Shown: one piece after another, positions 6,194-18,393 of the stretch | How the letters are laid out: the number at the start of each line of letters is the position of its first letter | Numbering within the stretch: position 1 is the first letter of the stretch | From: Alphaproteobacteria bacterium | GTDB taxonomy: Bacteria > Pseudomonadota > Alphaproteobacteria > Micavibrionales > Micavibrionaceae | Direction of reading: 5' to 3' | Assembly: GCA_025451095.1 (NCBI GenBank) | Contig: JANWLB010000003.1 | Location: forward strand, 1-34,995 | DNA length: 34,995 nucleotides | Position numbers and translations under genes: made by a program | Notes under the pieces: model-generated | Databases searched by the model: none | What the model was told of the DNA's origin: nothing | What the model saw: only the letters and a program-made list of their open reading frames with translations

Positions 6194-6291
6194 TGGCCCG
6201 ATTCGCCGGAGCCGCCATTGAAACACCAGTTTAACTATGCAAAAAAGGGGATGATCGTATGTCAGTCACAGCATTAAGGACGGGGGAACCC

Positions 6292-7416
6292 ATGAACAAG
6301 CCGAATACGGGCGAAAGACAAAAAGCCCTGGATGCCGCTCTTTCGCAGATCGAGCGCGCTTTCGGCAAGGGCTCCATCATGAAGCTCACGGGTGAGAACG
6401 CCACCGCGCATGTGGAAGTGATCTCCACCGGTTCGCTGGGGCTGGACATCGCGCTGGGAATCGGCGGCCTGCCGCGCGGGCGGATCACGGAGATTTACGG
6501 GCCGGAAAGCTCGGGCAAGACGACGCTGGCGCTGCAGGTGATTGCCGAGGCGCAGAAGGCGGGAGGTACCTGTGCGATCGTCGATGCTGAACACGCGCTC
6601 GATCCGTCCTATGCGAAAAAGCTGGGCGTTGATATCGACAATCTTCTGATCTCGCAGCCTGACGCCGGTGAACAGGCGCTGGAAATTGCCGATACATTGG
6701 TCCGCTCTGGCGCTGTCGATGTTCTGGTCGTTGACTCGGTCGCGGCCCTGGTGCCCCGGGCCGAGCTTGAAGGCGAAATGGGCGACTCGCATGTCGGCCT
6801 TCAGGCCCGGCTGATGAGCCAGGCACTGCGCAAGCTGACGGGATCGATTTCCCGCTCGCGCTGCGTTGTTATTTTCATCAACCAGATCCGCATGAAGATC
6901 GGCGTGATGTTTGGTTCGCCCGAGACGACAACCGGAGGCAACGCCCTGAAGTTCTATGCTTCCGTCCGTCTGGATATTCGCCGTATTGGCTCGATCAAGG
7001 AGCGCGAGACGGCTGTTGGCAACCAGACGCGCGTCAAGGTGGTTAAGAACAAGATGGCCCCGCCGTTCCGTCAGGTCGAATTTGATATCATGTACGGCGA
7101 GGGCATTTCCAAGACAGGAGAGCTCGTCGATCTTGGTGTTGCCAGTAATCTCGTGGAAAAAGCGGGTGCGTGGTTTGCCTATGACGGCCAGCGCATCGGT
7201 CAGGGCCGGGAGAACGCCAAACAATTCCTGCGCGATAATCCCGAGCTGGCGGCCAAACTCGAATCCACGATTCGCAAGCAGGCCGGTGTTGTCGCTGATG
7301 CACTTCTGGCGGGCCCCTCTTCCTCAGAAGAGGCGGCGGAAGCAGCGGAAGGTCCCGATGAGGAGGATTCAGCCGGTGAAAAGACTCCGCGGGGTAAAAA
7401 GAAGGCCGCGGGCTAG
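6292..7416 (+). CDS. recA: Recombinase RecA
   Basis: '[35 protein letters not shown]', '[37 protein letters not shown]'; probable start at 6292 ([17 protein letters not shown]); ORF track extends to 6259. Confidence 0.98.
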
Positions 7417-7468: not shown

Positions 7469-7521
7469 ATGCCTTTTCAGCAGTGTTTGGAAGTCGGGGC
7501 CGGACAAGGTATAGTTAAGCC

Positions 7522-8211
7522 ATGTCTGATCTTGAGCTTTTCAATATTCCCCTTTTTGACGGGGCGTCGCCGGAGACGCTGGAAAAGTTTGCGCGGCTGG
7601 TTGCGCACAAGACAGTTGAGGCTGGCGGTGTGCTTTTTCGTCAGGACGACGAAGGCACGGAAGCCTTTATTGTCATCAAGGGTGCGATCCGTATCGAGCG
7701 CCTGGCGGAGGATGGTAAATATATTCTTCTGAATATACTGGGACCCGGGGAGATATTCGGCGAGATGGCGCTGATAACCGGCAACCGGCGAACAGCTCAG
7801 GCGGTGGCGCAGTGCGAATCTGCCGTGATGATTATTCGCAAGCCGAACTTCCAGATGATGATGCGCCTTCATCCACGCATGAGCGAGCGCCTGATGTGCG
7901 TCTTAAGCGACCGGCTCACTCATACAGGAATCAAACTGGAAGAAACAGGTCTGAATTCTCTCAAAAGCCGGCTCGCCGGTGTTCTTCTTGATCTGCTAAA
8001 CCGTTTTGGTGACCGGCAGGGCGCCGAACCCGCGCTTTTCATCAAGCTCACTCAGAGCGATCTGGCAGCATTGGCGATTTCCAGCCGCGAGCATGTGAAC
8101 AAACTTATTAAAGCCTGGGAGCGCGAAGGCATTATTGATTTTAACCGTGGGAACATTAAGGTAATAGCCTACGACAAGCTCAGGGAAATAAACGATAATT
8201 CCGGCCTGTGA
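7522..8211 (+). CDS. Crp/Fnr-family transcriptional regulator, CRP-like with canonical cNMP-binding cassette
   Basis: Phosphate-binding cassette 'FGEMALITGNRRTAQAVA' and HTH 'LTQSDLAALAISSREHVNKLIKAWEREGII', in which SREHVNK aligns with the CRP recognition helix SRETVGR. Confidence 0.9.
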   Translation: MSDLELFNIPLFDGASPETLEKFARLVAHKTVEAGGVLFRQDDEGTEAFIVIKGAIRIERLAEDGKYILLNILGPGEIFGEMALITGNRRTAQAVAQCESAVMIIRKPNFQMMMRLHPRMSERLMCVLSDRLTHTGIKLEETGLNSLKSRLAGVLLDLLNRFGDRQGAEPALFIKLTQSDLAALAISSREHVNKLIKAWEREGIIDFNRGNIKVIAYDKLREINDNSGL

Positions 8212-8222
8212 TCTCCATCACA
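8207..8222. promoter_or_regulatory. Perfect CRP-type operator TGTGA-N6-TCACA
   Basis: tgtga tctcca tcaca; overlaps the stop codon (8209-8211) of the Crp-like gene and lies 63 bp before the next start codon. Confidence 0.65.
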
Positions 8223-8285
8223 GCGTATTTTCTTTAGGTTTTCTAGCGTCGTCTCGTCCGAAGCATCTAGCAAAAGGAGAGACAG

Positions 8286-9455
8286 ATGAGCACGACACCT
8301 AAAGACTTAAACACAGTAGCAAATGCATCAGGTGAGCGTCCGGCGGCTGAAGATCTGCGGCAGATTATTTCTGCTGCTGCTGATCCCAAATCCATCATTT
8401 CCGCTTTTGGCGGACCGGGAAGACTGAACTTCGTCCTGCAGGCCCTGGACCGAATGGACCAGGCCTGTCCGGACGTGGGTTATCACGTTTTCCGGCGCAT
8501 ACCGGGAGAAAGCGGGCCACAGGCGGCAGAGCGCCTGTGCTGCCTCATGCAGGAGTGGGATGACGGCTTGCGGCCGAGTTTTCCGGCACTGGCGCGTGCC
8601 TGGCTTAAAGAGCTGGGCATCGATCAGGAATCCTCGGCTGCGAAGATTCTGATGCTGGCCGCAGCCCGGGCAGAGATGGTGAAAGGCATCGTTCCGCTCT
8701 GTGCAAAGCCTGCGAATGACGAACCGGATTATCACAACCGGTCGCACTACCTGCAGGTCTTCCAAACCTGCTGTTATCTGCTGCAGGCGCAGCGTGAACT
8801 GCAGCAGACGATGCTGCTGTCCGCGCAGAACGATCCGCTCCTGCAGGCCCAAATAGGTGACTATGACGCCTGTACCCTGATGATTGACGGCATCACGCAT
8901 GATGTTGATCATCCCGGCTGCGGCAACCCCAAGGACCCGCTTTCACAAAAGCAGGTGCGCTTTTACAACGAGGACGTTTCGTCGTCTACGCTGTATCCGC
9001 TTGTCCTTGGCGTCGTCGGCGGGGCGAAGGAGACGGGCAGTTTCTATTCCATCTACGAAACTCTCAACCGCTTTACCGATCCGGGCACGCCACGAGGCGA
9101 TGCCCGCAAGGCGATCGAGGGCTTCAGGAATGGACAGACGCCGGAGCAGAGCGCGGATTATTTTGTCCGTCCTGATGCCGCGTTTTGGGCCTGTGCTGCC
9201 ATTCTCACTGACGCTGACATTCTTTTATCGGCGGCCTGCGGCGAGGAGGCTTTTGCGCGGGGTGGCACCAAGCTGACGAAGGAGGCGGGCAAGGCCGGCC
9301 TGTCGATGGACTTCACGACAACGGCCTCGCGGCAGTTCTTCTTCGACAATATCGTCGGGCCTGAAGGCCTGCTCAGCGGTCCTGCGCGCATTCTGTTCAA
9401 CCCGATCTATCAGCAGATGCGTCAGAAGAATGAACTCGCTCTGAAACCGTCCTAA
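8286..9455 (+). CDS. Class I (eukaryote-type) 3',5'-cyclic nucleotide phosphodiesterase-like HD protein
   Basis: 'DYHNRSHYLQVFQ' (YHNxxH), 'DGITHDVDHPGCGNP' (HDxDHPGxxN), 'FYNEDVSSSTLYPLVLGVV' (cf. PDE YNDxSVLENHH) and downstream Asp in 'AAILTDADILLSA' match the ordered metal-site motifs of PDEase_I. Good RBS aaaggaga. Confidence 0.72.
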   Translation: MSTTPKDLNTVANASGERPAAEDLRQIISAAADPKSIISAFGGPGRLNFVLQALDRMDQACPDVGYHVFRRIPGESGPQAAERLCCLMQEWDDGLRPSFPALARAWLKELGIDQESSAAKILMLAAARAEMVKGIVPLCAKPANDEPDYHNRSHYLQVFQTCCYLLQAQRELQQTMLLSAQNDPLLQAQIGDYDACTLMIDGITHDVDHPGCGNPKDPLSQKQVRFYNEDVSSSTLYPLVLGVVGGAKETGSFYSIYETLNRFTDPGTPRGDARKAIEGFRNGQTPEQSADYFVRPDAAFWACAAILTDADILLSAACGEEAFARGGTKLTKEAGKAGLSMDFTTTASRQFFFDNIVGPEGLLSGPARILFNPIYQQMRQKNELALKPS

Positions 9456-10156
9456 AGAATTAAGGTCCGGCCCTTCCCGTCTTTCCGGGCGGGGCCGGAC
9501 TCTTTTTTGGATAGCCTGTCAGCCAGCCTGGTGGGCTCCGGCAGCCGGTGTTTTCTCAGGCAGGCCATGACGATCTCCAGGGCTTTTTCATGACTGATCC
9601 GATGTCCCGGTGAGATAAACAGCGGCTTTACGTTTGTCTTGCTGCGCAGAACTGTGCCGATTTTCTCCCCTTTATCCATGAGAGCGCTGGTGTCGCCCTT
9701 GTTCGGCCCCGGCTCTTTATAGACACCCGCCAGGCGCTTTTTGGCCACACCCACCGCCGGCATATTGGCCAGGACACCGACATGACTGGCGATGCCCAGG
9801 CGGCGGGGATGGGCAATTCCGTGGCCGTCGATCATCAGCAGGTCAGGCTGACGGGGCAGTGTTTTCAGCGTGTCCAGAATGATGGGCGCCTCGCGGAAAG
9901 ACAGCAGGCCTGGCACATACGGGAAGGGCGTGGGTTGTTCCACGATATTTGAAAAAGACAGCTCCAGGGTCTGCGCCTCCATCAGAACGATCGCGCAGCG
10001 GCTGATGTTCAGGGCAGGATCGTAGCCTACATCAATCCCGGCGATCAGGCGGATGGCCCGGCCTTCATCTTTGATGCGGACTTTATGCCGCAGTTCCTTC
10101 TGAAGGGCGACGGCTTCGGCGGTGGTGCGGGGCCAGAGATAATTTTTCTCAAGCAT
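9452..10156 (-). CDS. nfi: Endonuclease V (deoxyinosine 3' endonuclease)
   Basis: 'AGIDVGYDP', 'PYVPGLLSFREAP', 'LLMIDGHGIAHPRRLGIASHVGV', 'KPLFISPGHRIS' are EndoV motifs. Confidence 0.93.
   Translation of the reverse strand: MLEKNYLWPRTTAEAVALQKELRHKVRIKDEGRAIRLIAGIDVGYDPALNISRCAIVLMEAQTLELSFSNIVEQPTPFPYVPGLLSFREAPIILDTLKTLPRQPDLLMIDGHGIAHPRRLGIASHVGVLANMPAVGVAKKRLAGVYKEPGPNKGDTSALMDKGEKIGTVLRSKTNVKPLFISPGHRISHEKALEIVMACLRKHRLPEPTRLADRLSKKESGPARKDGKGRTLIL
9465..9508 (+). terminator. Rho-independent terminator for the PDE-like gene, embedded in the 3' coding end of nfi
   Basis: GTCCGGCCC ... GGGGCCGGAC followed by TCTTTTTT. Confidence 0.7.
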
Positions 10157-16581: not shown

Positions 16582-18393
16582 ATGTCTGATATCTGGCTTA
16601 AGCATCTGTCGGCGACGCTCTCTGAGCATGGCCTGATCGCATACATGTGGAATGCGAACGAAGACCGTTTTCAGTGGGCGGGCAATGCACGGGTGGTCCT
16701 GGGCCTGGAAATTCAGGATCAGCCCCAGAATAATGCTCAGTTTCATAAAATGATCAACCCGCAGCAAGCGCCGCAGCGCCTGGCCACGCTGCATGAGCTT
16801 ATGGGCCGCGTGACGGCCGCCGGCGATGCGAAAATAGTTTCTGGTTTTACAGCCCATTATAAAATCCGCCGCGGCGATGGCGCGCACGTGGATGTCGAGG
16901 AATCGACCACGATGCATATCGAGGAAGGTACAGGGCACAAACTTCTTTGCGGCTTTCTGAAGGTCAAGGCTGCAGAGCCCCTTGTGCACACAGGCGGTAA
17001 CGCGCCCGGCAAGATTATAATGCCCGAAACGATTCATGATTCGGGAACGTGCCATCACGGCCGGCTCAGTATTCGCTACAAGGTCGATGAATGGATGACT
17101 ATGGGTCTTGGCCAGTCAGCGGTCGGCTATCTGCTTGTGGTGGGCATGGACAGGCTTTCGTTGATGAACGAAGCCTTTGGTGCCCGCTATGCAGATGAAC
17201 TGATTGAAAAGACAGGCCTGCGCCTGCGCCAGATCACAGGCGATACCGGCTATGTTTCCCGCATTGATGGCGACGTTTTCGGCATTTTGTTCCCGCAGGC
17301 GCCGCACAATGAGATGGCGGCCGTGGCGCAGTTCATGCTCAACAATTTTTACGACACTCCGATCCAGACCAGCAAAGGTCCAATCGGGATCAGCATCTCT
17401 GTGGGCGGCATAGCGCTGGATTGCCAGAGTGCTCGTGATTCCGCGACATTAATTACACGGGCGGAAATGGCGATGCAGGCCGCCAAGGAAAAGGGGCGCA
17501 GCTGCTTTGTGTCTTATCAGGAAGCGGTCAGTCAGGCTGTCAGCAACCGTATGCTCCTCGAATCGGGCGATGAATTCCTCAGGGCGCTTAAAGACAACCG
17601 CGTCCGTCTGGCATTCCAGCCGATCCTGAATTCGAAATCGCATGATGTGACGTTCCATGAATGCCTGATCCGCATGATCGATGAGAACGGAAAAATTCTT
17701 CAGGCCGGGCAGTTCGTTCCCGCCGTCGAAAAGCTGGGCTTAAGCCGGCTGGTCGATCAGTATTCTATCCGCATGGCGGTTCAGGAGCTAAGCCTGTTCT
17801 CGAATCTTGAGCTCTCTGTCAACGTTTCAAATATGACCCTGACCAATCAGGACTGGCTGCGGAGTCTTGTGTCGGCGCTGCGCGACCGGCCGAGTCTGGC
17901 CCGTCGCCTGATTATTGAAATTACGGAAAGCGCAGCGATAACGGATATTGACCGGACTGTACGCGTTGTCAGGACGCTTAAGGATCTGGGTTGCCGCGTG
18001 GCGCTCGACGATTTCGGCACGGGTTATACGGCCTTCTCCCAGATCCGCGACATGGATATCGACATGGTCAAGATCGACAAGTCGTTCATACGCAATATCG
18101 GAGAAGACCAGAACCATCTCTTCATCAAGGCGCTTCAGCTTTTGGCCGACGGCGTCAATGTGGAGACTGTGGGCGAGGGCGCTGAAACGATGGCCGACGC
18201 GCAGCGTCTTGCCGGCGACGGCATCGACCATATCCAGGGCTATGTCTTTGGATTTCCGGCGATTGAACGCATCTGGCTGCCCAAAAACCACGTATTTCGC
18301 CAGATTCCGACGGAGATTCAAAAGCCCGCCGTCTCAACCGGCGAAGTTCATGAGCAGGTGATGGAAGATATCGCCGCGTGGGGTTACCGCTAG
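16582..18393 (+). CDS. Degenerate GGDEF / intact EAL domain protein (probable c-di-GMP phosphodiesterase)
   Basis: GGDEF position reads 'RIDGDVFGILF'; EAL signatures 'FHECLIRM', 'LSVNVS', 'IIEITES', 'ALDDFGTGYTAF', 'VKIDKSFIRNI', 'ETVGEGAET', 'IQGYVFGFP'. Confidence 0.9.
   Translation: MSDIWLKHLSATLSEHGLIAYMWNANEDRFQWAGNARVVLGLEIQDQPQNNAQFHKMINPQQAPQRLATLHELMGRVTAAGDAKIVSGFTAHYKIRRGDGAHVDVEESTTMHIEEGTGHKLLCGFLKVKAAEPLVHTGGNAPGKIIMPETIHDSGTCHHGRLSIRYKVDEWMTMGLGQSAVGYLLVVGMDRLSLMNEAFGARYADELIEKTGLRLRQITGDTGYVSRIDGDVFGILFPQAPHNEMAAVAQFMLNNFYDTPIQTSKGPIGISISVGGIALDCQSARDSATLITRAEMAMQAAKEKGRSCFVSYQEAVSQAVSNRMLLESGDEFLRALKDNRVRLAFQPILNSKSHDVTFHECLIRMIDENGKILQAGQFVPAVEKLGLSRLVDQYSIRMAVQELSLFSNLELSVNVSNMTLTNQDWLRSLVSALRDRPSLARRLIIEITESAAITDIDRTVRVVRTLKDLGCRVALDDFGTGYTAFSQIRDMDIDMVKIDKSFIRNIGEDQNHLFIKALQLLADGVNVETVGEGAETMADAQRLAGDGIDHIQGYVFGFPAIERIWLPKNHVFRQIPTEIQKPAVSTGEVHEQVMEDIAAWGYR

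Follow-up and report, generated by a model that had tools for sequence, protein, structure and literature searches.

The bacterial enzymes that have been studied as erasers of cAMP are mostly class III phosphodiesterases, and CpdA belongs to this class. In Pseudomonas aeruginosa, CpdA serves as the cAMP phosphodiesterase of the Vfr-CpdA loop (Fuchs et al., 2010, as cited in PMC6363681). At the clr locus of Sinorhizobium meliloti, the class III enzyme SpdA acts on 2',3'-cNMPs and does not cleave 3',5'-cAMP; its expression is independent of Clr, whose site is TGTTN8AACA, and the case illustrates that substrate cannot safely be read from a gene's place beside a Crp-like regulator (PMC4222275). 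Class I phosphodiesterases (PDEs) have been described from eukaryotes (PMC4222275). Among the regulators, GlxR of Corynebacterium glutamicum has the published consensus site TGTGANNTANNTCACA, and both GlxR and the CRP of Mycobacterium tuberculosis (Mtb CRP) carry Asn at the position of Ser128 of CRP (PMC4254451).

The window analysed here, a stretch of 34,995 nucleotides from a member of the Micavibrionaceae, carries two plus-strand genes between recA (6259-7416) and the convergent nfi (9452-10156), which we take from its sequence to encode an endonuclease V-like protein. The two genes (crp and pde below) encode a Crp-like regulator and a PDEase_I-like enzyme. An earlier note on this DNA had read them, together with the palindrome between them, as a candidate self-contained circuit in which the regulator senses a cyclic nucleotide and controls the gene of the class I PDE-like enzyme that degrades it. 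The features of the locus are listed below.

7487-7515, plus strand: promoter-like match for the regulator gene, TTGGAA-17 nt-TATAGT, agreeing at 9/12 consensus positions (consensus match only)
7522-8211, plus strand: Crp-type regulator gene, 229 aa, with a cNMP-binding domain and HTH_Crp_2 (Pfam; nearest PDB chains by sequence and fold; model pLDDT 88.9)
7756-7797, plus strand: phosphate-binding cassette, residues 79-92, FGEMALITGNRRTA, with E81, R90 and T91 (alignment to E. coli CRP)
8083-8103, plus strand: recognition helix SREHVNK, residues 188-194 (alignment to E. coli CRP)
8207-8222, plus strand: candidate operator TGTGATCTCCATCACA, with the palindrome extending to 8206-8223 (exact match)
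8244-8249, plus strand: weak candidate -10 element TAGCGT for pde, read from the sequence (3/6 consensus positions, a weak inference)
8275-8279, plus strand: Shine-Dalgarno-like AGGAG, 6 nt 5' of the pde start codon (read from the sequence)
8286-9455, plus strand: class I-PDE-like hydrolase gene, 389 aa (PDEase_I above cut-off; model; fold matches)
8730-8747, plus strand: YHNRSH, residues 149-154, catalytic and metal His of HN..H (family-invariant except N)
8898-8912, plus strand: HDVDH, residues 205-209, metal His-Asp and HD..H (H205, D206 and H209 invariant)
9216-9218, plus strand: D311, metal ligand in a DADI motif (invariant)
9330-9332, plus strand: R349, aligned with the invariant Gln that binds the purine in class I PDEs (profile alignment with PDE4, a provisional lead)

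The promoter-like match at 7487-7515 would put the transcription start at or next to the ATG of the regulator gene, which suggests a leaderless mRNA. Recent foreign origin was considered on the basis of composition and set aside, as the signal is mixed: the GC content of crp is lower (0.526), but that of pde (0.585) matches its neighbours. Elsewhere in the window, 16582-18393 encodes a 603-aa protein that is GGDEF-EAL-like by eye.

Both domains of the regulator were identified above the Pfam cut-offs (cNMP_binding, PF00027, E=1.5e-22; HTH_Crp_2, PF13545, E=1.3e-14), and its nearest PDB chains are the cAMP-dependent regulators GlxR and Mtb CRP, both by sequence (E about 1e-24) and by fold (TM mostly 0.82-0.90). 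Residues were compared with those of E. coli CRP from MG1655. Gly71, Glu72 and Arg82 of CRP correspond to Gly80, Glu81 and Arg90 of the regulator, Arg123 is kept as Arg131, and Ser83 is replaced by Thr91; Gly80, Glu81, Arg90 and Ala92 are invariant across 16 regulator homologues, which bears out the cNMP cassette with ligand-holding Glu and Arg described in the earlier note. Of the C-helix base contacts of CRP, Thr127 is kept as Thr135 and Ser128 becomes Gly136, and because this base-contacting residue differs, the predicted ligand is given here simply as a cyclic nucleotide. The CRP recognition helix Ser179-Arg-Glu-Thr-Val-Gly-Arg185 aligns with Ser188-Arg-Glu-His-Val-Asn-Lys194 of the regulator, such that Arg189 and Glu190 match Arg180 and Glu181, Val183 is kept, and Lys194 takes the place of Arg185; the same Lys is found in GlxR and Mtb CRP, whose helix reads SRETVNK. 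The description of this helix as CRP-like was likewise borne out, and the TGTGA-type DNA specificity predicted from it is well founded. The activating-region residues His159 and Lys101 of E. coli CRP are absent from the regulator in the alignment to CRP. A role in Pycsar or CBASS anti-phage defence was considered and rejected: the PADLOC matches of the regulator cover only or mainly its cNMP-binding part, and the PDE has none.

The enzyme matches PDEase_I (PF00233) at E=3.7e-7, with 30.5 bits against a cut-off of 24.8, over profile positions 1-52 of 238. It carries HN..H at residues 150-154, HD..H at 205-209 and Asp at 311, and His150, His154, His205, Asp206 and Asp311 are unmutated throughout a 16-member alignment. 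Two outcomes that the earlier note named as refuting, a missing PDEase_I match and mutated metal ligands, were thus looked for and did not occur. Its AF2 model (pLDDT 85.6, pTM 0.89) gave PDB fold matches that were class I PDEs in 50/50 cases among the matches listed, with E about 1e-4, TM of 0.42-0.54 by query and about 14-16% identity. A generic HD-domain protein was rejected, since the listed fold matches are class I PDEs and no Pfam HD match is reported for the window's enzyme; in those homologues that show an HD match, it lies below cut-off. A profile of 16 homologues aligned by hhalign with a PDE4 catalytic domain over residues 149-386; this alignment is provisional, and the fold search agrees with it. 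PMC5617230 lists eight metal-pocket residues for class I PDEs, of which seven are present here; the exception is the His that stands three residues after the Glu, replaced by Ser232. In the provisional PDE4 alignment, the Gln that invariantly binds the purine in class I PDEs falls on Arg349, and no aligned homologue has Gln at this position, the 16 sequences showing Arg, Lys, Leu, Phe or Val. Because the purine Gln is replaced and a metal-pocket His is Ser, we name the protein class I-PDE-like and not a class I cNMP PDE: the earlier assignment stands for the profile, the fold and the metal ligands, but not for these two positions. With Arg349 at the purine-recognition position, hydrolysis of the regulator's own 3',5'-cNMP is put forward as a prediction. 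The same genome encodes a second PDEase_I-like protein, below the Pfam cut-off (G000:C112:20407-21246; L147, L173), whose gene neighbours are presumably acyltransferase-like and DAHP-synthase-like, as named by eye.

The perfect TGTGA-N6-TCACA reported between the two genes is exact at 8207-8222, and its extended form at 8206-8223 reads CTGTGAT-CTCC-ATCACAG. The palindrome runs across the stop codon of crp (8209-8211), and its end lies about 63-64 bases 5' of the pde start. It is rarer than chance: the perfect 10-base form is expected 0.04 times per window and was present in 4/100 shuffled windows, and the 12-base form, TGTGAT-N4-ATCACA, occurred in 0/100 shuffles. Three perfect 10-base sites exist genome-wide, which is about chance level, and the motif alone thus gives no sign of a large regulon; a genome-wide operator regulon is not supported on this count, the other two sites not lying clearly before a sensible gene.

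Other families of the class commonly carry full-length homologues of the regulator (about 30-37% identity); within the window's own order none was found, the matches there being weaker and for the most part partial, and the scan of genome contigs returned one distant match in Rhodoferax. Six perfect TGTGA-N6-TCACA sites occur in 29 regulator-homologue loci (100,675 bases), compared with an average of 0.03 in the same loci for 29 other palindromes obtained by permuting TGTGA, and the proposed link between regulator and operator is strengthened accordingly. Some of them are located immediately beyond crp or in the interval that separates it from a cyclase gene (L117, L132), and other loci of the window's order, about 310 kb in total, hold no perfect site. 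A class III cyclase gene was detected with a custom-built HMM within about 1.5 kb of the regulator homologue at 8/29 loci, and Pfam confirms the cyclase at four of the eight (L117, L119, L122 and L132); three of the eight belong to a single genus, which leaves about six independent cases. These cyclase neighbours indicate that the regulator clade belongs to cyclase-linked signalling.

Class I-like PDEs are rare in Pseudomonadota, with PDEase_I above cut-off in 2/399 sampled genomes, namely the window's genome and G183. A perfect TGTGA-N6-TCACA lies upstream of the PDE-like gene of G183, and the distant family to which this genome belongs (f49; G183 and six relatives) has a PDE ortholog with a perfect upstream site in 7/7 genomes. 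The half-sites are invariant and the spacers vary, permuted palindromes are absent from the seven loci, and neither a crp homologue nor a cyclase lies beside the enzyme within the stretches examined. The window's enzyme is about 23% identical to this family (to L152). The association between operator and PDE gene proposed for the window is reproduced there, and the f49 sites are the strongest evidence that CRP-type control of PDEase_I-like enzymes is real. A general association of the operator with PDE homologues was rejected, as no perfect site was found in 25 loci from the order or in 14 class-wide loci; the site-PDE link is not universal, the perfect site occurring only at the window and in f49. 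Searches of genome contigs, viral contigs and plasmids with the enzyme gave no match. Among the order relatives, seven loci (L006, L007, L046, L047, L049, L051 and L053) encode N-terminal PDEase_I-like domains in proteins of up to 850-1550 aa, with tandem copies in two of them, and in L006, L007, L046, L047 and L049 an ORF of 60-80 aa abuts or overlaps the 5' end of the long PDEase_I-like gene. In L007 (1-2571), the PDE-like domain is followed by RTGGDELRLIF, which is GGDEF-like by eye; Pfam gave no GGDEF match.

The gene pair itself is absent from every other genome searched, and the conservation search proposed in the earlier note thus found the pair in one species only. A PDE homologue is present in 21/142 genomes of the order, a count that includes the window's genome, with about 25-39% identity in the rest, and no crp-like gene lies beside any PDE-homologue locus checked. 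The same-genus genome G001 has recA and a cyclase but lacks a PDE homologue, and what it offers for the regulator is limited to distant matches of the cNMP domain; downstream of its recA come a small gene and then sequence antisense to smpB. In G009, recA, nfi and smpB are clustered, recA and nfi are about 0.3-0.4 kb apart, and both crp and pde are missing, which indicates that, in this comparison, the two genes were gained or lost as a single block. The pair is therefore either an accessory insertion or a relic that other genomes have lost.

A single class III cyclase was found in the genome, a CHASE2-cyclase encoded on another contig. The earlier description of the circuit as self-contained does not survive this observation, and the remark that no cyclase is visible is true of the window but false for the genome. 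As the assembly is a draft (114 contigs, 85% completeness, 6.8% contamination), a single cyclase here means a single one detected. CHASE2-type class III cyclases occur in 38/58 relatives, with or without the PDE. The genome also encodes, at G000:C1:14517-15914 (L066), a cNMP-binding protein whose C-terminal part is EAL-like and which by eye resembles Bd1971 (PMC6717892), and a CRP-like site with one mismatch, TGTGACCTATGTCACC, lies upstream of it at C1:15988-16003. Other cyclic-nucleotide receptors are therefore probably present in the genome.

From the computed elements, which are the two protein families, the operator, the cyclase of the genome and the recurrence of the operator with the regulator clade and with PDEase_I-like genes, we derive a probable feedback circuit of the Vfr-CpdA kind with a divergent class I-like PDE. 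A cyclic nucleotide would rise, most simply 3',5'-cAMP made by the CHASE2-type cyclase; the cNMP-bound regulator would act at 8207-8222 on the enzyme promoter and change transcription of the hydrolase; and the hydrolase would in turn lower a cyclic nucleotide. If the regulator activates, the result would be negative feedback as in the Vfr-CpdA loop. The weak -10 element at 8244-8249, if used, would place the operator centre at -41.5, the position of a class II activator, in line with negative feedback; a promoter-like match is also present at 8171-8199, and use of this promoter would put the operator just after the transcription start, as for a repressor site, both being consensus readings only. 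The regulator in all likelihood binds 8207-8222. It very probably controls the enzyme gene and quite probably needs a cNMP to do so, and it is fairly likely that the enzyme cleaves a cyclic nucleotide. Whether ligand and substrate would be the same molecule is evenly balanced and, as the steps depend on one another, the loop as a whole is given an even chance. Weighing against it are the occurrence of the pair in one species, the chance-level number of sites in the genome, the replaced Gln and metal-pocket His of the enzyme, the Gly136 and the missing activating-region residues of the regulator, the lack of the site at PDE homologues outside f49, the ability of the palindrome to form a weak terminator hairpin, and the SpdA case.

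The hydrolase gene could be under the control of the regulator and yet its product act on something other than the regulator's ligand, such as 2',3'-cNMPs, pyrimidine cNMPs or another phosphodiester, in which case it would insulate or reshape the signal and not close a feedback loop. The loss of the purine Gln, which is missing from all aligned homologues, and the Ser at the metal-pocket His are consistent with this, and SpdA at the clr locus, a 2',3'-cNMP PDE, offers a precedent (PMC4222275); the modelled fold and metal site are nevertheless of the class I PDE type, and a CRP-type operator upstream of the f49 PDE genes fits cNMP turnover. We regard such a mismatch of ligand and substrate as somewhat unlikely. 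Taken further, the alphaproteobacterial PDEase_I-like family may form a separate class I branch in which replacement of the Gln brings another nucleotide preference, with the regulator, through Gly136, sensing the same non-standard nucleotide; this seems unlikely, and would, if true, amount to a circuit dedicated to some cyclic nucleotide that is not cAMP.

Two further explanations concern the palindrome and the pairing of the genes. The palindrome may mainly be a weak intrinsic terminator of the crp transcript, with an incidental match to the CRP consensus, given that it was flagged as terminator-like (a 7-pair stem followed by TATTTTCTTT) and its hairpin is predicted at -9.1 kcal/mol. This fold is ordinary, however (z = -1.26; 23/200 shuffles fold as well), 3/7 of its pairs are G-C, and TGTGA half-sites recur at the regulator homologues and the f49 PDEs with differing spacers, which a terminator would not need; we consider this explanation very improbable. 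Chance could instead have brought together two unrelated accessory genes, the regulator having other targets and the enzyme being controlled otherwise. The relatives searched lack an ortholog of either gene and gave no homologous pair, and a perfect 10-base site arises in about 4% of shuffled windows. Against this stand the extended site, which none of the 100 shuffles produced and which is placed exactly between the genes, the recurrence elsewhere of both the regulator-site and the site-PDE pairings, and the flanks in G009, where the two genes are missing together; chance neighbourhood is thus quite unlikely, and the feedback circuit remains our preferred reading.

Set beside the Vfr-CpdA loop, this circuit has in common a Crp-type regulator, responsive to a cyclic nucleotide, that is here predicted to act on the gene of a phosphodiesterase removing that nucleotide, and a putative binding site for that regulator upstream of the phosphodiesterase gene. 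It differs in that the window's enzyme is PDEase_I-like and not class III, and in the adjacency of the two genes. The regulator is closest to GlxR and Mtb CRP in sequence and fold and shares with them the R, E, V, N and K of the recognition helix, whereas identity is about 27%, their Asn at the Ser128 position is Gly136 here, and its clade is alphaproteobacterial with cyclase neighbours. The clr-spdA locus likewise has an alphaproteobacterial Crp-like regulator near a predicted PDE in a class III cyclase context (PMC4222275), but with a class III enzyme in place of a class I-like one and TGTTN8AACA in place of TGTGA-N6-TCACA. The window's enzyme resembles class I PDEs in its profile match, fold and HN..H, HD..H and Asp metal ligands, and departs from them at the purine Gln, at the metal-pocket His and in its low overall identity. 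The f49 genes encode a homologous, though distant, enzyme behind the same perfect operator and differ in having no crp-like neighbour in the stretches examined. Taken together, the operator in all seven f49 genomes and the adjacency in the window tie a class I-like PDE family to bacterial Crp signalling, and raise the questions of which substrates the bacterial class I-like enzymes use and whether Crp-PDE loops have arisen more than once with unrelated enzymes. The comparison suggests that the feedback design is one already known, and that the class I-like enzyme with an altered base-recognition residue is its new part.
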